This document shows positions 12,540-31,690 of a DNA stretch of 64,000 nucleotides, one piece after another (the stretch's first letter is position 1; every line of letters starts with the position of its first letter). The notes under the pieces are model-generated. The model was not told the origin of the DNA and made no database searches. It saw nothing but the letters and a program-made list of their open reading frames with translations. The position numbers were made by a program, and so were the translations under genes. Source of the DNA: Halovivax gelatinilyticus (lineage in GTDB: Archaea; Halobacteriota; Halobacteria; Halobacteriales; Natrialbaceae); NCBI RefSeq assembly GCF_024300625.1, contig NZ_CP101322.1, forward strand, positions 3,237,992 to 3,301,991, read 5' to 3'.

Positions 12540-14199
12540 CGGATTTGCGTCGATTGCGGGGCTGCTGGCACCGTTGCTTACCGATCCCGGGGCCATCCTC
12601 GACCTCACCTTCGAGGTCGAACTGCTCCCGGCGCTGCTCGTGGCCGTCCCGATTCTGGCCGCCGCCGTGCCGATCGTGCTCGGATTGCGATTCGATCGGA
12701 CGGGGTGGTCTGTTGCACTCCTGACGTCTCTGGGACTGTTCGCCGGTACGATCGCGATCGCTCGCGAAGTGTACGCAACGGGCGGGTACACCCAGGTCAT
12801 CCACGAAGTCGGCGGCTATCCGGCCCCCTACGGGATCGAACTCGTCGCCGACGAGTTCTCGACGATCATCGCCCTGCTGGTCACCGGATCCGCCGTCGGC
12901 GTCCTGGCGTACACGCGAGTGGGCGGACCGCGTGGATCCACATTTTACGCAGCCTACCTGCTCCTCACCGGCGGTTTGCTCGGCCTCTCGTTCACCGGTG
13001 ACGCGTTCAACATGTTCGTCTTCCTGGAGATCGTCGGGCTCGCGACGTACGGGTTGATCGCCAGGGGCGACAGCGCGGAGTCGGCCGTGGCGGCGTTGAA
13101 ATACCTCGTCCTCGGAACGCTCGGCGCGTCGCTCTACCTGCTCGGGGTGGGCCTGCTCTTCATGGCGACCGGCCACCTCAACATGGAATTCATCAATAGC
13201 GAGTTGTACGACGGCGCGCTGGTCGAAAACGAGACGCTCGTCCGCGCGTCGTTCGCGTTCGTCTTCGTCGGCTTCGCCATCAAAGTCGCCCAGTGGCCAC
13301 TTCACACCTGGCAGCCGGACGCCTACCAGCGGGCGCCGGACGGAATCACCCCGTTGATCGCCGCCCTCGTCTCGACGGTTTCTGCCTACGCCCTCGGGCG
13401 GATTCTCTTTACGGTCTACGGCGTCGAGTTCGTCACTGCGACGCCCTACGTCCAGGAGATCATCCTCACGGTCGGCATCGCGAGCGTGATGGCCGGCTCG
13501 ATTCTCGCCGTCACCCAGACCGACGTCAAGCGAATGCTCGCGTACTCGTCGGTCTCGCAGTTCGGCCTGATCGTCGCCGCGTACGGACTCGCGACGCCGC
13601 TCGCGCTCGTCGGTGCGATCGTCCACCTGGTCGGTCACGGGCTAATGAAAGCGGGTCTCTTCCTCGGTGCGGGCGTCGTCGCCGCAGGATACGGGGCGCG
13701 ACGCGTCAGGGAGTTCGCCGGCCTCGCCGAACACCGGCCGGTCGCCGCGGCCTCGATCGCCGTACTCGCGATCTCGCTGGTCGGCATTCCGCCGTCGATC
13801 GGCTTTATCGGAAAGTGGTACATCGCGGTCGGCGCCATCCAGGCCGAAGCGTGGACGGTCGCGGCCGTCATCTTCCTGTCGACCATGTTGACGCTGCTGT
13901 ACGTCGCCCGGTTGCTGGAGACGATGTACTTCACACCCGCCTCGGCGCGTTCGTCCGGCCACGCCGTCACCGGCGAGTCGGGCCACGGCGATGCGGTCGC
14001 AACCGACGGTGGCGAAGAAGCGAACGAATCGTTCGGTGACCGCCGGTCGGCGGACTCCAGTCGACGACGGCGCGTGTCGGTCGGCATGCTCGCGATCGTC
14101 GCGGTGTTCGCGGTACTGACTGTTGGACTCGGCTTCGCCGGTGATGTGCTCTACGAGGCGATCGAGCCGTTTGCAGAGGAGGTGTTCGACGATGGTTGA
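12532..14199 (+). CDS. mrpD: Mrp antiporter subunit D, first of three NuoL/M/N-like proteins
   Basis: The protein has 555 residues and about 14 membrane helices. The two charges of the ion path are present: E166 in FLEIVGLATYGLIA (TM5) and K251 in FAIKVAQWPLHTWQPDAY (TM7). Further signatures are RMLAYSSVSQFGLI and HGLMKAGLFLGAG. Residues 480-520 are a soluble, acidic, Arg-containing linker before the last helix. Together with the next two genes it provides the proton- or Na+-conducting modules. It overlaps the next gene by eight bases. Confidence 0.93.
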   Translation: MSDGFASIAGLLAPLLTDPGAILDLTFEVELLPALLVAVPILAAAVPIVLGLRFDRTGWSVALLTSLGLFAGTIAIAREVYATGGYTQVIHEVGGYPAPYGIELVADEFSTIIALLVTGSAVGVLAYTRVGGPRGSTFYAAYLLLTGGLLGLSFTGDAFNMFVFLEIVGLATYGLIARGDSAESAVAALKYLVLGTLGASLYLLGVGLLFMATGHLNMEFINSELYDGALVENETLVRASFAFVFVGFAIKVAQWPLHTWQPDAYQRAPDGITPLIAALVSTVSAYALGRILFTVYGVEFVTATPYVQEIILTVGIASVMAGSILAVTQTDVKRMLAYSSVSQFGLIVAAYGLATPLALVGAIVHLVGHGLMKAGLFLGAGVVAAGYGARRVREFAGLAEHRPVAAASIAVLAISLVGIPPSIGFIGKWYIAVGAIQAEAWTVAAVIFLSTMLTLLYVARLLETMYFTPASARSSGHAVTGESGHGDAVATDGGEEANESFGDRRSADSSRRRRVSVGMLAIVAVFAVLTVGLGFAGDVLYEAIEPFAEEVFDDG

Positions 14200-20683: not shown

Positions 20684-21766
20684 TCAGTTTTCTGTTCCAG
20701 TCGATTCGTCCTCGTCGACGGTGACGAGCGATTGTTCGAGAACGCTCGTTCGCAGCCCACCGCTTACCCCGCTTGCAACGGTACGCGGCGCGTCCGGTTC
20801 GAACGCTCGCCTCGCTCCCACGGGTTTGAGGTAGTCGCCGCCGACGTCGACGTCTGCCTCCTCACAGAGTCGTTTGAGTATCGTTCGGGCCCCTTCGGTC
20901 GTGATCGCCGCGGGGGAGATCGCGTGCTCGTGTGCCAGTTCGATCGCGGTGTGGTCGTCGAAGAGCGCGTCTATCTCGTTCGATCCGTACCCGCGCTCTG
21001 TGAGTTTCGTACGGACGGTAGAAGCGATCGATGGGGCGTGTCGGGTCGGAAAGAGCGGCCAGTCGTTCGTCGGCGGATCGAGCGCGATCCGATAGCGTCG
21101 AAGGGGCGTCCGCGCGGCCGCCGGAAGCGGAACGTCCTCGAATTGCTGTGAGGTGCCTAGAACCTGAATCGTTCCCGCGTAGAAGTCGACGTCGTCCCAC
21201 GTCGCACCCGTCCGACGGTCGTCTTCGGGAACGCGAAAGAGCTCCCCACCTCGAAGCCCAGCGTGTGCGAGTAACGCGACCATCGCGTACTCCCGTAGTC
21301 TGGCGAGACGGTCGTCCGTTCCTTCTTCCGCTTCGCTCGCTCGGGTTTCGACGTACGATTCTAGTTCGCGCCTGGCGTCGGCCGACCAGTGCTGTGACAG
21401 CGTCGTGTCGGACACCTCGGGGAGCGCGTCGACGACGACCGCCGCTTCAGCCGGGTTCTCGCGAATCACCGCTTCGTCGACACACCAGGAGAGAAACGCG
21501 CGAACGACGGCGAAATAGGTATGGGCACTCGAGGCGGCGTACTCCCCACGACGCGTCCTGTCGTTCAGTTCTCGGGCGTAAGCGCCACAGTGGGCTGTTT
21601 CGAGTTCCGCGACGGTCGTGACGTCGTACTCACGATCGAGCCACTCCGTCCACCGAGTGAGGATCGAACTGGCGTTCGACGCGTACGTCCCGGCACCCGC
21701 GCCATCGCTGGAGCCGACGGATTTGCGCTCCAGGTACCGTTCGATCAAGGCGTCGAGTGGAATCAC
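20684..21766 (-). CDS. Divergent integrase-like protein without a catalytic tyrosine
   Basis: The protein has 360 residues. Residues 1-110 look like the SAM-like core-binding domain of phage/Xer integrases (ALIERYLERKSVG, SSAHTYFAVVRAFLSWCVDEAVIRENPAE). Residues 155-180 keep the first catalytic region with R172 (LLAHAGLRGGELFRV). The second box, normally H-x-x-R, reads KPVGARR, and no Tyr occurs in the last 48 residues, so strand cleavage seems impossible. The GTG at 21766 is preferred; the longer frame from 22018 would overlap the MATE gene and has no integrase similarity. It may be a DNA-binding relic or a repurposed protein. Confidence 0.75.
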   Translation of the reverse strand: MIPLDALIERYLERKSVGSSDGAGAGTYASNASSILTRWTEWLDREYDVTTVAELETAHCGAYARELNDRTRRGEYAASSAHTYFAVVRAFLSWCVDEAVIRENPAEAAVVVDALPEVSDTTLSQHWSADARRELESYVETRASEAEEGTDDRLARLREYAMVALLAHAGLRGGELFRVPEDDRRTGATWDDVDFYAGTIQVLGTSQQFEDVPLPAAARTPLRRYRIALDPPTNDWPLFPTRHAPSIASTVRTKLTERGYGSNEIDALFDDHTAIELAHEHAISPAAITTEGARTILKRLCEEADVDVGGDYLKPVGARRAFEPDAPRTVASGVSGGLRTSVLEQSLVTVDEDESTGTEN

Positions 21767-21963
21767 GACCGAACCACCCGCTCGCCCCGGCGGTGCCTGG
21801 GGCCGAGTGCTACCGCGATTACATCGCCTTTCGGTGGCGGCTGGTTGACCATCTGTGCCGACTGACGAATCCCACTCGTGTAAATCTGACCCCGCGCGTC
21901 CGGCCCGTTCACGAGTGAGATCGTGCGCCGGTGCGTTCGATCTATCGGGGCCAAATCGCCGGC

Positions 21964-23412
21964 TCACTCTCCGCTGTCCGTTCCGCCGGGACGGTAGGAT
22001 CTGCTGATCGCCTTCCACCGTCCGGTACCGAACCGGTAGTAATTAATCGAAGCCGGAATCGCCGTCTCGGCGACGAACGCCAGGTAGAGGCCGTAGAGAC
22101 CGAGTGGAGTCGTCGCACCGATGTAGGTGAGCGGGATGGCGCCCGCGAACATACCCAGCGCCTGGGCGTAGAACGGCCAGCGCGTGTCGCCGGCGGCGTT
22201 GAGCGCACCCTCGGTCGTTCCGGAGATCCCCTGAAAGAGGATCGCGACGCAGGCGACCTGCACCAGCGTGACGGCGACGGGAACCGAGAGTTCGGCGGGG
22301 TCGTCGACGAACACGAGCGTGATCGGTTCCGCGAATACGAAGACGATGGCGGCCGATACGGCGTAGACGGCGATCGAAAAGCGAATAATCTCTCTGCCGT
22401 ACCGGTCGGCCGTACGCTCGGCTCCGGTTCCCAGTTCCTGGCCGACCAGACTCGAGGCGGCGAGTCCGAAGCCCCAGCCGGGAGTGTTCATGAGCGCCCA
22501 GATCCGTCGGGCGACGATGTACGCCGACGCCACGTCGGTGCCAAAGAGGTCGACGATCGAGAGCAACGGTATCTCGGCGACCGTCCACACCAGGTTCCGG
22601 CCGAACACCGGGAGGCCGATCGTGATTAGCGACCTGATGACCTCGCCGTCCACGTACGTCCCGAACGGATCGACGGTCATCTCGGCTTCTGGAACCCCGG
22701 GCAGGCGACCGAAGACGAGCAAGATGGCGAACGCGAGGGTAACGAAAACGTTTGCGAGCACCGTTCCGAGGGCGGCGCCGACGACGCCCATTCCGAGGCC
22801 GAAGATGAGAAACGCGTTGAAGGCGATGTTCGCGACGGCCCCGCCGGCTCTGATCACCATCGGCGTCCAGGCGTCGTCCATCCCGACGAACGCCCGACTT
22901 CCGATGAGATTGAGGCCGGCGAACGGCATCCCGAACGCGACGACGGCGAGGTAGGCCGACCCGAGTTCGATCACCTCCGGATCGTCGCTGATGATCGAGA
23001 TGAGTTCCGACGCGAAGATGCTGAACGCGATGGTGAACGGGACGCTGATGAGTACGACGAGCAACACGCTCGATCGGATCGATTGTCCTACTTGCCCGAA
23101 TCGCCGAGCACCGTATCGCTGGGAGACCAGCGCGATCGTTCCGCCGGCCACGCCGCCGCCGATCGTGAACGCGAGCCCCCAGAACGGCGTCGCGTATCCG
23201 ACACCGGCGATCGCGGCTCCGCCGACGGCGATGCCCACCATCGCGATGTCGACGGCGCTCTTGGACATGCGAGCGAGGCCGGTGACGATTCGCGGCCAGG
23301 CAAGGTCGGTCGTCCGTCTCGCTCGCTCCCGGTCGATCAGACCCAGTCTCGCCAGTCCGATCCCGATCCACAGGATCAACAGGCGAATCGGGTTCGGTAC
23401 GCGAGAGGCCAC
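21964..23412 (-). CDS. MATE-family multidrug/toxin efflux transporter
   Basis: The protein has 482 residues and 12 expected membrane helices arranged as two MatE repeats (about 45-210 and 265-430). Characteristic stretches are AVDIAMVGIAVGGAAIAGVGYATPFW, GGVAGGTIALVSQRYGA, GLNLIGSRAFVGMDDAWTPM and SSLVGQELGTGAERTADRYGREI. MATE proteins export cationic drugs or metabolites using Na+ or H+; the substrate is unknown. The short basic start (LLILWIGIGLARLGLIDRERARR) is kept because ATG at 23412 begins a plausible helix. It lies upstream of the integrase-like gene, with a 197-base gap. Confidence 0.93.
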   Translation of the reverse strand: MASRVPNPIRLLILWIGIGLARLGLIDRERARRTTDLAWPRIVTGLARMSKSAVDIAMVGIAVGGAAIAGVGYATPFWGLAFTIGGGVAGGTIALVSQRYGARRFGQVGQSIRSSVLLVVLISVPFTIAFSIFASELISIISDDPEVIELGSAYLAVVAFGMPFAGLNLIGSRAFVGMDDAWTPMVIRAGGAVANIAFNAFLIFGLGMGVVGAALGTVLANVFVTLAFAILLVFGRLPGVPEAEMTVDPFGTYVDGEVIRSLITIGLPVFGRNLVWTVAEIPLLSIVDLFGTDVASAYIVARRIWALMNTPGWGFGLAASSLVGQELGTGAERTADRYGREIIRFSIAVYAVSAAIVFVFAEPITLVFVDDPAELSVPVAVTLVQVACVAILFQGISGTTEGALNAAGDTRWPFYAQALGMFAGAIPLTYIGATTPLGLYGLYLAFVAETAIPASINYYRFGTGRWKAISRSYRPGGTDSGE

Positions 23413-26245: not shown

Positions 26246-26722
26246 ATGCACGAGCGTGCGAAAGAGTTCACGGAATGCGCGGCCGCTCGGTACGACATCG
26301 AGCCGGACGTCGTGGAGTTCGAGGAGGGAACGAAAACCGCGGCCGACGCCGCGTCCGCGATCGGCTGTGAGACGGCCCAGATCGCGAGTTCGCTGGTGTT
26401 CACCGTCGACAACGAGCTCGTCGTTTCGGTGACCAGCGGTGCCAATCGCGTCGATGAAACCGTGCTCGCTGAATCCTTCGGCGCTGATTCGGCAGCCGTC
26501 GAAATGGCCGATCCGGATCGGATTCGGGAGACGCTCGGCTGGGTCATCGGGGGCGTCCCGCCGATCTGTCACGAGACGTCCGTCCCGATGGTCATGGATC
26601 GGACGCTCCTCTCGTTCGACGAGGTCTGGGCGGCGGCCGGAACGCCCACGTCCGTCTTTCCGATCGATCCCGAGACATTACATGCGTTGACGGGTTCGTC
26701 GCTGGTTACGTTCGATCGGTAA
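26246..26722 (+). CDS. YbaK/ProX-type aminoacyl-tRNA deacylase domain protein
   Basis: The protein has 158 residues, the normal size of free-standing YbaK domains. These remove wrongly attached amino acids from tRNA (for example Ala- or Cys-tRNAPro). Visible features are KTAADAASAIGCETAQIASSLVF, where the conserved Lys is replaced by other residues near the start, then GANRVDE, GWVIGGVPPICHET and VMDRTLLSFDEVWAAAGTP. The ATG at 26246 is chosen over 26180 because the domain begins there. The exact tRNA substrate cannot be read. Confidence 0.9.
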   Translation: MHERAKEFTECAAARYDIEPDVVEFEEGTKTAADAASAIGCETAQIASSLVFTVDNELVVSVTSGANRVDETVLAESFGADSAAVEMADPDRIRETLGWVIGGVPPICHETSVPMVMDRTLLSFDEVWAAAGTPTSVFPIDPETLHALTGSSLVTFDR

Positions 26723-26874
26723 TCGATCGTGACCTCGGATATCAGACGGAGTAGGGGTTCGTACCGAACGTTGGAGTCGACGCACGCCGTAATATGACTG
26801 TTCGAGAGGCGTTTTAACAACTTCAACCCCATTACTTGGTCCAGGTTAATAACTAGGTCACTTTGGATAATAAC

Positions 26875-26883
26875 ACTTATACC
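26875..26883 (+). promoter_or_regulatory. Promoter of the zinc locus lipoprotein
   Basis: ACTTATACC is centred about 26 bases before the ATG at 26905, suggesting a leaderless mRNA. Just upstream, GTTAATAAC (26845-26853) is a small inverted repeat with a one-base centre inside an AT-rich stretch, a possible site for a metal-responsive repressor. Confidence 0.5.
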
Positions 26884-26904
26884 GACGAGACCGAACGTTC
26901 GTGT

Positions 26905-27783
26905 ATGGATCGAACACGACGCGCAGTGCTCGCAGGTGGTGCAGCGATGATGATCTCAGTTTCCGGTTGTCTCGGCGGCGATGACGACGACGGTGAGCCG
27001 GTACCGGATTCGATCGATGCATCCGAGTTCGAGGTGCTCGACCGCGACGACGAATCGGTGACCGTCTACGTCCACGACGATCACTGGGACCATGGTCCAC
27101 TCGTCGTTCCCCTCGATGATATCCGCTCAGTCGGTGCCTACGTCGAGGACGAAGATGGGGACGAGGTTGAACTCGGTGAAGACATCCGACTCGACGCGAC
27201 GCTGGTCGACGGCGCACAGGACATCGTCTCGATCGAATCACACGGTGATCACATCCACTTCCAGGGCGACGAAACGGGATTGACCGACGTCGTTATCCAG
27301 CTGATTCACGACGAGGCCGACGGCCCGTTGTACGAGACTCCCGTCCTCTCCGTCGAGATTGCCGACGACCACGATCACGACGACGATCACGGCCACGACC
27401 ACGAATCGGTCGATACCCTCCGTATTTTCGATCGAGGTCCCGATCCGCACGAAGAAGTCGCAGACGTCCACGGCGACCACTGGCACGGCGAACTCCCGCA
27501 CATTCACGTCGGAGAGAACATCTCGCTGGGCGGCGAGTTCGAAGACGATGACGGCCACACCATCCCGATCGGATCGGACGAGGAGTACGAACTCGGTGTC
27601 GCGGTCGCCGAGGATGCGCCGGAGGGTATCGTTTCGATCGACCCTGACGGGGACTTCCACGGCGATCACGTGCACGTCCACGGCGAGCAGGAAGGCGAGA
27701 CGGAACTCGTCTTTTCGCTCTGGCACGACGACCACGCCGATTGGGAGTCGCCGCCGATCGCCGTCGAAGTCGAGGATCACTGA
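26905..27783 (+). CDS. His-rich lipoprotein with two copies of a metal-binding module
   Basis: The protein has 292 residues. RTRRAVLAGGAAMM is a twin-arginine signal and SVSGC is the lipobox, with lipidated C22. Two related modules follow, at about 41-153 and 171-290. Each begins with a His/Trp motif (HDDHWDHG at 58-64, HGDHWHGELP at 189-198) and continues with an acidic beta-rich part ending IVSI...HGDHIHF or HGDHVHVHG. A His/Asp linker (DDHDHDDDHGHDHE) joins them. The next gene encodes a ZnuA-like protein holding a third copy. It is most likely an extracellular zinc-binding protein that feeds or buffers the transporter. The start at 26905 is fixed by the signal peptide. Confidence 0.88.
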   Translation: MDRTRRAVLAGGAAMMISVSGCLGGDDDDGEPVPDSIDASEFEVLDRDDESVTVYVHDDHWDHGPLVVPLDDIRSVGAYVEDEDGDEVELGEDIRLDATLVDGAQDIVSIESHGDHIHFQGDETGLTDVVIQLIHDEADGPLYETPVLSVEIADDHDHDDDHGHDHESVDTLRIFDRGPDPHEEVADVHGDHWHGELPHIHVGENISLGGEFEDDDGHTIPIGSDEEYELGVAVAEDAPEGIVSIDPDGDFHGDHVHVHGEQEGETELVFSLWHDDHADWESPPIAVEVEDH

Positions 27784-27837
27784 TTACCCGCAATCCGACG
27801 CCCGGACTCGAACAATCTCCGGAAAGTGACCCTACGA

Positions 27838-27898
27838 TTCGAGCAACACTCGAACAGTTACTAGAACACCCTCGCTATAGCGCGAGAATTATTAATAC
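27838..27898 (+). promoter_or_regulatory. Two inverted repeats and an internal promoter before znuA
   Basis: TTCGAG (27838-27843) and CTCGAA (27849-27854) form a perfect six-base inverted repeat over five bases. CTCGC and GCGAG (27871-27886) form a second one. The TATA-like ATTAATACA at 27890-27898 comes right after. The znuA ATG is at 27948. The gene may thus be transcribed on its own besides reading through from the lipoprotein. Confidence 0.45.
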
Positions 27899-27947
27899 AC
27901 AGATGAGAAATAGCAACACGTTTTGTCCAGCAGGCCGAACGGACGGT

Positions 27948-29345
27948 ATGGAACTGACGCGACGATCCGTCCTCTCCGCTGCGGCTGGCACCGGCGCGGC
28001 ATCTCTCGTCGCCGGCTGTCTCAGCGACCCGCCCGGGTTCGGTTCAGACCCGGAGGGGGGATACGCCGCGTTCTACGCCCTCTGGGACTGGGCCGAACAG
28101 GTCTCTGGTGACGAGATGTCCTTCGAAAACCCGGTCGACGTCGGCGAGATGGGCCACGGCTGGGAACCGAGCGCCAGCCTCCCGGCGGACGTCGCTCAGT
28201 CTGCGGCGTTCATCTATCTCGACACACCCGAGTTTTCCTGGGCGCAGGATCTGGCTCGCGAGCTAGAAACCGATCACGAGGATGTCGCCCTGATCGACGT
28301 GATGGAGGGACTCGAGCCCCAGCTGTTGGTGATGGACGAAGACGACGGCGCCGACCGTGAGGCGGATCCGGAATCGGCGTTCGATCCGGAGCACCTGACG
28401 GTCGATGATTTTGACGTCTACGATACGCGATCAGGCGAACGGATCATGTACTGGCACGACGGCCACTGGCACGGTGGTGTCCCGTCCATCGAAGTGGATT
28501 CGTCTGTCACCGTCGAACCGGTCGTGATCGACGAATCTGATCGGGTACTACCGCTCGACGACGACTCCGCGTTCGAACTCGATGCAGTCGTCGCCGACGG
28601 CGCCCAGGAGGGTATCGTCGACATCGAAGCGAGTGACGGTCGGATCACCTTCAGCGGTACGAACAAGGGTTTAACGCGCATCTACTATCGGGTACTCCAC
28701 GACGGATCGGTCATCTGGGATACGAGCAACGATCTGGCGAGCGTCGAGGTAGTCGCCGAACTCGAAGCGACTGACCGACCGAGTTTCTACGATCCGCACG
28801 TCTGGGTCGACCCGGTACTCGCCGAGCAGATGGTCGAAACCATCGCCGACGGCCTCTCCGAGGTCGATCCCGACAACGAGGGGACGTACCGAGAGAACGC
28901 GGAGGACTACCAATCCCGAGTCGCTGACGTTCACGATCAGTTCAAGGCGCTCGAAACGGAGGCCACCCGCGATGTGGCGCTGTTTATCGGACACGATTCG
29001 TTCGGGTACATCGACGCACGGTACGACTTCGACATTCACACGTCCGTCGGCATCTCGGCCGACGCCGACGAAACCGGGGCCGACGTCGCTGAACTCGTCG
29101 AGCTGATCGAAACGCATGACATCGAGACTGTGCTGTACGACCCGTTCGAAACGCCGAATCCAGATACCGACGTTCCGGACGCCGTCGAGGTCATCCTCGA
29201 GAGTTCGGAGGCGACGAACTACGAACCGCTCACGCCGGTCGAAGGGACGACTCCGGAGTGGAACGACGCCGGCTACGGCTGGGTCGAGCAGATGGAACAG
29301 GTAAATCTGCCATCACTTAGAAAAGCCCTCGGGGTGAAACAGTGA
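27948..29345 (+). CDS. znuA: ZnuA-like metal ABC transporter substrate-binding lipoprotein with inserted module
   Basis: The protein has 465 residues, far longer than the usual 300 or so. The signal is LTRRSVLSAAAG with lipobox LVAGC (C24). The cluster A-I binding-protein core supplies the expected metal ligands: H70 (GHGWEPS), H284 (DPHVWVDP), H349 (GHDSFGY) and the acidic D398 region (YDPFETPNPDTD). Residues about 152-270 are a foreign module with WHDGHWHGGVP, closely resembling both modules of the upstream lipoprotein. It sits where ordinary ZnuA has its His-rich loop. An upstream Met at 27903 is possible, but the signal peptide indicates 27948. It delivers zinc (or manganese) to the ABC transporter downstream. 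Confidence 0.92.
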   Translation: MELTRRSVLSAAAGTGAASLVAGCLSDPPGFGSDPEGGYAAFYALWDWAEQVSGDEMSFENPVDVGEMGHGWEPSASLPADVAQSAAFIYLDTPEFSWAQDLARELETDHEDVALIDVMEGLEPQLLVMDEDDGADREADPESAFDPEHLTVDDFDVYDTRSGERIMYWHDGHWHGGVPSIEVDSSVTVEPVVIDESDRVLPLDDDSAFELDAVVADGAQEGIVDIEASDGRITFSGTNKGLTRIYYRVLHDGSVIWDTSNDLASVEVVAELEATDRPSFYDPHVWVDPVLAEQMVETIADGLSEVDPDNEGTYRENAEDYQSRVADVHDQFKALETEATRDVALFIGHDSFGYIDARYDFDIHTSVGISADADETGADVAELVELIETHDIETVLYDPFETPNPDTDVPDAVEVILESSEATNYEPLTPVEGTTPEWNDAGYGWVEQMEQVNLPSLRKALGVKQ

Positions 29346-29465
29346 TATCCGCGTTCGATACCCGTGGTCGGTCTGGACGGCATACGCCGGACCTAGTATC
29401 CGATCGGAGTGATTCGACGTGATAGGAAAAGTACCTCAGCCGACGCATCTAGCGGTGATGGACTC

Positions 29466-30206
29466 GTGAGCGCGATCGTCGAGGTGGAAAACGTCTCGTA
29501 CGCCTACGGCGGACAGCCCGCCGTCAGCGACGTCTCGCTCACGATAGAGGCGGGCGACTTTCTCGGCCTGATCGGGCCCAACGGTTCCGGGAAAACCACC
29601 CTCTTACAGCTCATTCTCGGACTTCTCGAACCCGACGAAGGATCGATCAGACTGTTCGGCCAGCCCGTCGACTCGTTCGACGACGGCGAGCGAATCGGGT
29701 ACGTCTCGCAGGCAGCGACCGACCGCGACGGAACGATGCCGGTCACGGTCGACGAGTGCGTTCGGATGGGACGCTACGCCCACGTCGGGTTCGGCTCGCT
29801 CTCGGGGCACGATCTAGATGTCGTCGACCGCGCGATGGAGACGGTCGGTATCACCGACCTCGCTGATCGACGCGTCAGCCGACTCTCCGGCGGCCAGCGC
29901 CAGCGGGCTTTCATCGCCCGGGCGCTCGCCTCCGAAGCGGAACTTCTGGCACTCGACGAACCGACCGTCGGCGTCGACGCGGAATCGCGCGACGCGTTTT
30001 ACTCCCTGCTCGACTCGCTCAACGACGACGGGATCACCATCGTTCTCATCGAACACGACATCGGCGTCGTCACGGATCGGGCCGATCGAATCGCGTGTCT
30101 GAACACCCGTCTCTTCCACCACGGCGATACGGACTCGTTCGTCGAGAGCGACGCCCTGGAAGAGGCCTACGGACAGACCGGACAGATCGTCCACCACCAT
30201 CACTGA
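29466..30206 (+). CDS. znuC: Metal ABC transporter ATP-binding protein (ZnuC-like)
   Basis: The protein has 246 residues. Walker A is GPNGSGKTT, the signature is RLSGGQRQRAFIARALA, Walker B is LLALDEPTVGVD, and the switch His is in IEHDIG. The sequence is closest in style to ZnuC/MntB ATPases. It ends GQIVHHHH, a natural His cluster that might bind zinc. The GTG at 29466 is preferred because the domain starts immediately; a GTG at 29409 would add 19 unrelated residues. The stop overlaps the permease start by one base. Confidence 0.92.
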   Translation: MSAIVEVENVSYAYGGQPAVSDVSLTIEAGDFLGLIGPNGSGKTTLLQLILGLLEPDEGSIRLFGQPVDSFDDGERIGYVSQAATDRDGTMPVTVDECVRMGRYAHVGFGSLSGHDLDVVDRAMETVGITDLADRRVSRLSGGQRQRAFIARALASEAELLALDEPTVGVDAESRDAFYSLLDSLNDDGITIVLIEHDIGVVTDRADRIACLNTRLFHHGDTDSFVESDALEEAYGQTGQIVHHHH

Positions 30207-31534
30207 TGTCAGAAGACGAGCTAAACGCAAACGACGAATCCGCCGGTACTGAACCGGCCTGCTCCGACTCCGATATCGAACCGACCGATGGAGAGTCCGG
30301 TGAAACGAGCCCGGATCCGGTCGGTGCCGACGGGGGTGTCGAGATACCGGAAACGGAGACGAACGGTGGACCCGTCGAATCGAACGATGACCGGGCGACT
30401 CGAGACGCTCGGTCTCCGATCGGTTTCGGCCGAATCGGAAGCGTCACGTTCCTCGCGAAACCGGCCGACCGTCGCGGCTGGATCGTCAGTGCGGGTATCG
30501 GCGTCACGGCAACGCTCGCCGTGTTCATGCTCGGGTTCATCGCGCTCGATTGGCTCAGACACTACCCCCTCGCCGAGAGCGTTCCGGTCGTCGAATCGAT
30601 CTATCAGACCCTCGGTATCGATCCGTACGCGGAGCGACTCTTCGGGCAGTTTCTGATCGCCGGTGCGTGGCTCGATTACGCGCTCGGAACCGACATCTTC
30701 CGCTTTGCGTTTTACTGGCGCTCGCTCGCGACGGGCGTGCTGATCGGGATCGTCGCGCCGCTCGTCGGCGCCTTCGTCGTTCATCGACAGATGGCCCTCA
30801 TCGGCGAGACGCTCGCACACACGGCGTTCGCCGGCATCGCGGTCGGACTCGTGCTCGCGGGTCTGTTCGAGTGGTGGGGCGCTCCGCTGATGCTCGTCGC
30901 GCTGGTGGTCGGCGTCCTCGGTGCGGTCGGCGTCCAGTGGCTGACCGATCGAACCGACACCTACGGCGACGTTCCGATCGCGATCATGCTCGTCGGCAGC
31001 TTCGCCGTCGGGACGCTACTCATCGAGTGGGCACGCGGGATCGGCACCGTGACGATCGACATCGAGGCGTACCTGTTCGGGAACATCACGATCGTTCCGG
31101 CCGGAAGCGCCCGGTTGATGGCGGTCCTCAGCCTCGGCGTTCTCGCCGTGGTCGCGTTCACCTACAAGCAGTTACTGTTCATCACGTTCGACGAGCAGGC
31201 CGCCCGCGTTGCACAGCTCGACGTCGGCCGGTACAACACGATACTGATCGTCATGACGGCCGTGGTCGTCGTCGGATCGATGCAGATTCTCGGGGTGATA
31301 CTCGTCGCCGCCATGCTGGTCGTCCCAGTCGCAGCTGCCTCCCAGATCGCGCGGAGCTTTCGCGAGATGGTACTGCTCTCGATTTGCTTCGGGGAGGTAG
31401 CGATCGTCGCCGGCTTCGCGTTCGCGTTCTCGGCGGATCTCCCACCCGGCGGTTCGATCGTCGTCGCCGCTATCGCCCTCTACGTGCTCACCGTCGTCCG
31501 AACGACGCACGCGACGAGTCTTTCGACGCACTGA
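30206..31534 (+). CDS. znuB: Metal ABC transporter permease (ZnuB-like)
   Basis: The protein has 442 residues. Residues 1-85 form an acidic, disordered N-terminal extension not seen in bacterial ZnuB. Eight to nine membrane helices follow from residue 95. Family motifs include YWRSLATGVLIGIVAPLVGAFVVHRQMALIGETLAHTAFAGIAVG and FDEQAARVAQLDVGRYN, and the late SMQILGVILVAAMLVVPVAAASQIAR. It forms the membrane channel with the ATPase before it. The start overlaps the znuC stop (TGATG). Confidence 0.93.
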   Translation: MSEDELNANDESAGTEPACSDSDIEPTDGESGETSPDPVGADGGVEIPETETNGGPVESNDDRATRDARSPIGFGRIGSVTFLAKPADRRGWIVSAGIGVTATLAVFMLGFIALDWLRHYPLAESVPVVESIYQTLGIDPYAERLFGQFLIAGAWLDYALGTDIFRFAFYWRSLATGVLIGIVAPLVGAFVVHRQMALIGETLAHTAFAGIAVGLVLAGLFEWWGAPLMLVALVVGVLGAVGVQWLTDRTDTYGDVPIAIMLVGSFAVGTLLIEWARGIGTVTIDIEAYLFGNITIVPAGSARLMAVLSLGVLAVVAFTYKQLLFITFDEQAARVAQLDVGRYNTILIVMTAVVVVGSMQILGVILVAAMLVVPVAAASQIARSFREMVLLSICFGEVAIVAGFAFAFSADLPPGGSIVVAAIALYVLTVVRTTHATSLSTH

Positions 31535-31656
31535 TCTGATCGCGGGGGGCGGGTTTCGCGATCGGAAGAACGGGTCACCCGTAGACGAACGTAGTCGTAG
31601 TCACGCGTAGGCGCACGGAGTCACGGTCGGCGATCGTTCGTCGGGAACCACCTCCA

Positions 31657-31666
31657 GAATTTATCA
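31657..31666 (+). promoter_or_regulatory. TATA-like element of the acyl-CoA synthetase operon
   Basis: GAATTTATCA is centred about 30 bases before the ATG at 31691, pointing to a leaderless transcript. Confidence 0.5.
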
Positions 31667-31690
31667 CACCTCCGCCCGACGTCCTACGTG

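Follow-up and report, generated by a model that had tools for sequence, protein, structure and literature searches.

The 64,000-nucleotide stretch of DNA analysed here (the window) carries a zinc-type transport operon in which a surface lipoprotein has two copies of a domain of about 115 residues and the ZnuA-like binding protein has an internal third; this domain is unnamed and absent from Pfam and NCBIfam. From its setting and from known systems, we think that it probably acts as a surface zinc-capture module that hands zinc to ZnuA, in the manner of PhtD/AdcAII or AztD/AztC with an unrelated domain, and that it has spread among soda-lake microbes. With slightly less assurance, the data lean towards a niche-bound zinc-acquisition domain, a common response to scarce zinc in carbonate brines of high pH: horizontal transfer would have taken it through archaea and many phyla of bacteria, and separate ZnuA lineages would independently have received one to three copies at the same loop.

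The four genes of the operon lie on the forward strand. The first (26905..27783) encodes a lipoprotein of 292 residues in which a twin-arginine signal and a lipobox ending at C22 precede the two modules; R5, R6, G21 and C22 are invariant among 28 homologues. Module 1 (residues 41-153; 27025..27363; mean model pLDDT 87) contains HDDHWDH (57-63) and HGDHIH (113-118), module 2 (residues 171-292; 27415..27780) contains HGDHWH (189-194) and HGDHVH (252-257), and the His/Asp-rich linker between them, DDHDHDDDHGHDHESVD (27364..27414), is modelled at a pLDDT of about 64-73. The second gene (27948..29345) encodes a ZnuA-like lipoprotein of 465 residues, a cluster A-I solute-binding protein (PF01297) with an inserted module. 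This module 3 (residues 152-270; 28401..28757; pLDDT about 86-96) bears HDGHWH (170-175) and a degenerate second motif, and is followed by the C-terminal lobe (28764..29342), recognised by alignment to YcdH/AdcA. The third and fourth genes encode a zinc-type, ZnuC-like ABC ATPase (29409..30206) and a ZnuB-like ABC permease (30206..31534), whose start codon was inferred, the longest frame running from 30095. The ATPase ends in HHHH (30191-30205), an unusual cytoplasmic histidine tail on a metal importer subunit.

The three modules (113-122 residues each), which are the only copies in the source genome (3.70 Mb), align from end to end. Smith-Waterman scores between them are 163, 140 and 143, compared with means of 42, 37 and 34 after shuffling (Z 14.9-16.3), and the best of 1000 shuffles scores 80. 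The double occurrence in the lipoprotein and the single one in ZnuA, reported in the initial annotation, are thereby confirmed, and the comparison of predicted structures that it had suggested gives strand assignments agreeing over 88-93% of the aligned residues. Its concern that the matches might be limited to low-complexity His/Asp stretches does not hold: such an artefact is ruled out by BLASTP with the low-complexity filter on (E 1e-6 to 3e-13) and by the invariant positions, which include the W and G/T positions of the core. Some details of the anatomy required revision. The His/Trp entry motif stands as motif 1, HxDHWH, common to all copies, and a second motif had been missed: HGDHxH, present as HGDHIH or HGDHVH in both lipoprotein copies and as SDGRIT in the window ZnuA copy, which, judged by its sequence, has lost it. 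The modules had also been taken to end at DGAQ/APEG..IVSI; each goes on for about 45 residues, through HGDHxH..G...GxTxxVF, to a VEV strand, and module 2 reaches residue 292 rather than 290.

This layout is general among 127 haloarchaeal modules, where motif 1 comes first, with its W in 127/127, motif 2 lies about 55 residues downstream, and G...GxTxVVF and a final V-E-V strand are found C-terminal to motif 2. H57, H60 and W61 are invariant in the 28 lipoproteins, and HGDH almost so, while HxxHW is invariant in 56/56 module-bearing ZnuAs. The histidines of motif 2 are less evenly kept, with frequencies of 0.78 and 0.82 at the first two positions in haloarchaeal non-ZnuA copies (larger set), 0.79-1.0 in bacteria and 0.41 in haloarchaeal ZnuA copies. 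A divergent subgroup from Myxococcota, Ignavibacteriota and Gemmatimonadota (L186, L191, L192, L196, L198, L199, L202) keeps HGDHVH[IV]YG and WHGDH or WHxDH and has lost most motif 1 histidines.

The AlphaFold2 model of the lipoprotein (pLDDT 87, pTM 0.53) consists of two beta-sandwiches, whose mutual placement is unsure at this pTM, and an Ig-like beta-sandwich is the predicted fold of the module. Structurally, it comes closest to the Ig-like domains found in S-layer proteins, invasins and filamins; with Z reaching at most 9.3 over two domains and 7.1 for a single one (rmsd 2.9, 84 residues), this likeness denotes a fold class and not a family. Searches of Pfam, NCBIfam and PDB sequences with the module gave nothing credible, and the Pfam Big (bacterial Ig-like) family did not match it. 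The HxxHxH of the streptococcal histidine triad is present (HGDHWH, HDGHWH, HGDHVH); the PF04270 (Strep_his_triad) profile left the window copies unmatched and matched 1/88 modules weakly (E 0.0076). The HxD/HxH domains of Corynebacterium diphtheriae are, we presume, linked to NCBIfam P_ac_wall_RPT (TIGR03769); membership of the module in that family was rejected, with no match in the two proteins, the 88 modules or the genome. An AztD-type metallochaperone was likewise rejected, as the lipoprotein model is not a beta-propeller and had no NCBIfam match.

Because Ig-like folds are common in surface protein-protein contacts, the modules could instead serve for docking, binding each other or the permease with no zinc in transit, the His/Trp residues being structural or ligands of a structural zinc. 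The almost invariant W of motif 1 and the disappearance of motif 2 from many ZnuA copies would suit this; however, HxxHxH and HGDHxH are typical metal motifs whose histidines surpass most of the fold in conservation, and we consider a purely docking role quite unlikely.

The proposal in the initial annotation of one dedicated domain tied to znuABC is supported by a conserved four-gene operon. Among 75 haloarchaeal regions surveyed, the order lipoprotein (one or two modules), module-bearing ZnuA, ATPase, permease recurs across genera, and the first gene is a Tat lipoprotein in nearly all of them. Module proteins beside ZnuA also occur in Mycoplasmatota, Spirochaetota, Actinomycetota (Nitriliruptoria) and Thermoplasmatota. 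Fourteen haloarchaeal single-module proteins and several large ones are located away from znu genes, as are 18/33 bacterial loci within short contig slices.

A genome of the same genus (G208) provides an empty site for the operon. There, the series from a transporter-like gene through thiE, thiM and two small genes to acs and pta is unbroken: on L232, orf180 stops at 13832 and acs begins at 13957. The interval between these two genes in the window, 26722-31688, holds the four-gene operon. This points to the gain of the cassette as a block in the window's lineage, and the slightly lower GC of its first two genes (0.57-0.63, compared with 0.62-0.69 in the flanks) lends weak support to gain. G208 has a znuABC with a His-rich loop (L236, 5980-8674) that has no counterpart between the collinear flanks (L242) in the window's genome, where a single PF01297 protein occurs. 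This second system may have been lost in the window's lineage or gained in G208; from the gene content we read the difference as replacement. The module lipoprotein was not found in PLSDB, where plasmid spread was looked for, nor the module in IMG/VR, where viral spread was looked for. An open frame resembling a tyrosine recombinase/integrase lies on the reverse strand (20684-22018), some 5 kb ahead of the gained operon.

The region ahead of the lipoprotein gene (26723..26904, forward strand) contains AT-rich repeats, GTTAATAA and ATAATAACACTTATA, that resemble elements common to sister operons. Across this region and those of 47 related operons, taken ahead of lipoprotein or ZnuA genes, the common words are GTTAATAA and the self-complementary TTASTAA, as in TTAATAATATCGTTAGGTTCATTAGTAA. 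TTAATAA occurs in 27/48 upstream regions, whereas any 7-mer after shuffling reaches 8 or fewer. These words are possibly a metal-responsive operator or promoter element, or may represent TATA/BRE.

The binding protein itself is a clear member of its family, scoring 146 bits against PF01297 (gathering cut-off 29, E 1.8e-42). Its model (pLDDT 88, pTM 0.80) aligns by VIA-align with Z of 28.6 to AdcA (7jj8) and 28.9 to AztC (5w57), and the part outside the module matches AdcA, AztC, Lmb and MntC with Z of about 27-29. The predicted ligands are H70 in the N lobe, H284 in DPHVW and H349, plus D398; H70, H284 and H349 align with histidines of YcdH/AdcA, and H70, H349 and D398 are invariant in 56 ZnuA homologues. 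The protein is thus a candidate high-affinity zinc binder for import. PF01297 includes Mn and Fe binding proteins, and the import of another metal scarce at high pH (Mn, Fe, Ni, Co or Cu) has to be weighed; we judge it improbable, as the three-His site aligns with Zn-binding YcdH/AdcA, the best sequence matches are zinc proteins, and the His-rich loop of module-less relatives points to zinc (PMC7463823).

The module lies directly N-terminal to DPHxW in the window ZnuA. At this place 12/13 module-less haloarchaeal ZnuAs compared, including that of G208, have a His/Asp-rich loop, which directly supports the earlier placement of the module at the position of the His-rich loop. HDH runs persist next to one, two or three modules in spirochaete ZnuAs and in an Acholeplasmatales genome, and this suggests that modules were inserted into a His-rich loop. 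Of the module-bearing ZnuAs examined outside Halobacteria, all but one have about 10-50 residues between the end of the internal module and DPHxW. The exception is L156 (Thermoplasmata), with modules C-terminal to the DPHxW lobe; its lobe matches come in reversed order, perhaps reflecting a permuted or mis-scored protein. Both L151 and L156, Thermoplasmata MAGs, encode ZnuA-like proteins with C-terminal modules. Compared with classical ZnuA, the fold, metal site and loop position are thus the same, but the flexible His-rich loop is replaced or flanked by one to three folded modules. Natural variants with 0, 1, 2 or 3 modules at one ZnuA loop offer material for testing the role of this loop.

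In a tree of the ZnuA lobes only, the window protein falls within a supported set (98) of 33 module-bearing proteins from other genera, the closest by identity being from Natrarchaeobius (65%). A single clade for all module-bearing ZnuAs is rejected marginally (p-AU 0.035, with long branches present), making more than one insertion likely, not certain. The module tree has 113 columns and many open forks. In it, most ZnuA modules from Halobacteria (38 rows) fall together in a supported clade (SH-aLRT 95), the lipoprotein copies being placed in other parts, and spirochaete ZnuA modules group with a Trueperaceae non-ZnuA module (99). At least 3 changes of host between ZnuA and other proteins are forced by supported branches, and the full tree requires 12. 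The idea that the module was traded between two surface proteins therefore stands for these forced changes and has to be narrowed within Halobacteria, where the 38-row clade indicates that swapping is rare.

Two zinc systems in which an accessory protein supplies a ZnuA-family protein provide precedents. In Streptococcus pneumoniae, the HxxHxH of PhtD binds Zn2+ and releases zinc to AdcAII; the likeness lies in a surface protein sharing an operon with a ZnuA-family zinc-binding protein and in the repeated HxxHxH (PMC3842936). Pht repeats, however, are short three-strand units, whereas the present unit, of about 115 residues, has two motifs and occurs within the binding protein as well. In Paracoccus denitrificans, AztD donates zinc to AztC via a His loop at the same chain position (PMC6689063, PMC7463823), this loop and its three histidines being essential for taking zinc from AztD (PMC7463823). 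Unlike the beta-propeller AztD, the putative donor here has the same Ig-like module that replaces or invades the loop of the acceptor. With these precedents and the operon, the most economical reading is that the lipoprotein captures zinc and delivers it at the module of ZnuA.

The lipoprotein would accordingly sit outside the membrane and capture scarce Zn2+ with both His motifs of its two modules. Zinc would then pass to ZnuA, whose own module, beside the metal site, may act as a receiving or docking arm, and from there to the H70/H284/H349/D398 site and the ABC permease. The window ZnuA module has no motif 2, which is kept in fewer than half of the haloarchaeal ones, so it may bind zinc weakly or only dock. 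The four genes would move as one cassette. The domain has spread through archaea and bacteria from brines of high pH and rich in carbonate, a setting in which very little free zinc is expected. We infer zinc as the module's ligand, the direction of transfer, contact between modules and zinc scarcity as the selective force.

The nearest conceptual match is with ZnuE, ZnuF and ZnuG of C. diphtheriae, where surface proteins encoded next to znu genes contain a His motif domain, single or in tandem, and the binding protein ZnuA has a related motif, zinc binding there being suggested by thermal shift; the differences are that about 150 residues separate HxD from HxH and that anchoring is transmembrane or by sortase (PMC12445094). 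Deletion of ZnuF/ZnuG left growth unimpaired and the proteins seemed to sequester zinc; both bind it, and they slow the growth of cells that lack the transporter (PMC12445094). These mixed ZnuE/F/G phenotypes keep storage a serious rival, in which the lipoprotein would hold zinc as a surface store or buffer and the ZnuA copy would tune the local concentration with no directed hand-over; the many module proteins outside znu operons suit it as well. We nevertheless hold storage to be unlikely in view of the strict pairing of lipoprotein and module-bearing ZnuA in one operon and the repeated placement of the module at the loop which receives zinc in AztC. A module that senses zinc and signals or regulates uptake, a role also raised in the initial annotation, is scarcely credible: the module proteins scanned contain no signalling domain, regulator or transmembrane partner, and those of the operon are extracellular lipoproteins.

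The distribution of the module leans towards one habitat. Within Halobacteria its presence is patchy: it was found in 51/292 sampled genomes (22/76 genera), with a PF01297 protein in 241, and in 0/4 other genomes of the window's genus. Partial matches in G071, G017, G061 and G339 (E 5e-4 to 3e-3) fall in unrelated-looking proteins and were set aside as chance. The genus of H. alkaliphilum serves as a natural control: roughly 35 of its sampled genomes have a PF01297 protein (hand count), and H. alkaliphilum (G260) alone has a znu-linked module; in another member, G008, the module occurs in an unrelated protein of 717 residues. A wide scan of 84,980 species genomes with an 11-row module query gave at least 75 loci, by record titles at least 42 archaeal, at least 28 bacterial and 5 without assigned rank. 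They belong to Methanobacteriota sensu NCBI, Thermoplasmatota, Bacillota, Mycoplasmatota, Deinococcota, Myxococcota, Spirochaetota, Ignavibacteriota, Actinomycetota and Gemmatimonadota, with at least 8 bacterial phyla in all. The suggested search of archaeal genomes for co-occurrence with znuABC bore out the operon link; so wide a range of phyla and a bias towards soda lakes had not been anticipated.

At least 48 of the 75 loci listed, from about 45 genomes, bear Kulunda sample tags. Most other loci we take to be from haloalkaliphiles (Natronorubrum, Natronococcus, Natrarchaeobius, Halorubrum vacuolatum, H. alkaliphilum, Natroniella); three Ods genomes, B79T1B8 and Methanocalculus chunghsingensis are possible exceptions. 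The tags B1Sed10, T1Sed10, T3Sed10 and CSSed10/11 denote soda lakes (PMC6146748), CSSed16/CSBr16 a soda lake of pH 9.9 (PMC6704655), and Tc-Br11 (pH 9.9) and B1-Br10 (pH 10.2) soda-lake brines (PMC4766312), such brines having a pH of 9.5-10.2 (PMC4766312; PMC6704655). Sampling bias may add to this signal through the halophile-derived query and the numerous soda-lake MAGs. Misbinning of MAGs possibly lies behind bacterial loci; the module in the genome of cultured Natroniella acetigena supports its presence in bacteria. The literature searched did not address zinc acquisition by soda-lake microbes at pH near 10, and the module is a testable candidate for zinc supply at high pH that marks zinc importers of archaeal and bacterial haloalkaliphiles. 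If true, it would be a clear example of habitat, not ancestry, determining where a trait occurs.

Several module proteins have other architectures. In Methanocalculus, including M. chunghsingensis, modules occur without znu genes nearby; L129, L131, L132 and L133 (Methanocalculus or the same genus) have them in membrane-tethered proteins with no module-bearing ZnuA nearby. Some Methanocalculus-type module proteins end in a PGF-CTERM-like tail, and in one class the module follows a conserved 230-residue domain. A Pfam scan of three large module proteins gave no credible domain, with GLUG motifs in one. Large proteins of 868-1049 residues with two or three modules occur at L043:5923-8529, L046:6455-9310, L064:6316-9141, L093:6317-9106 and L150:6143-9292, that of L043 lying next to a module-bearing ZnuA in divergent orientation.
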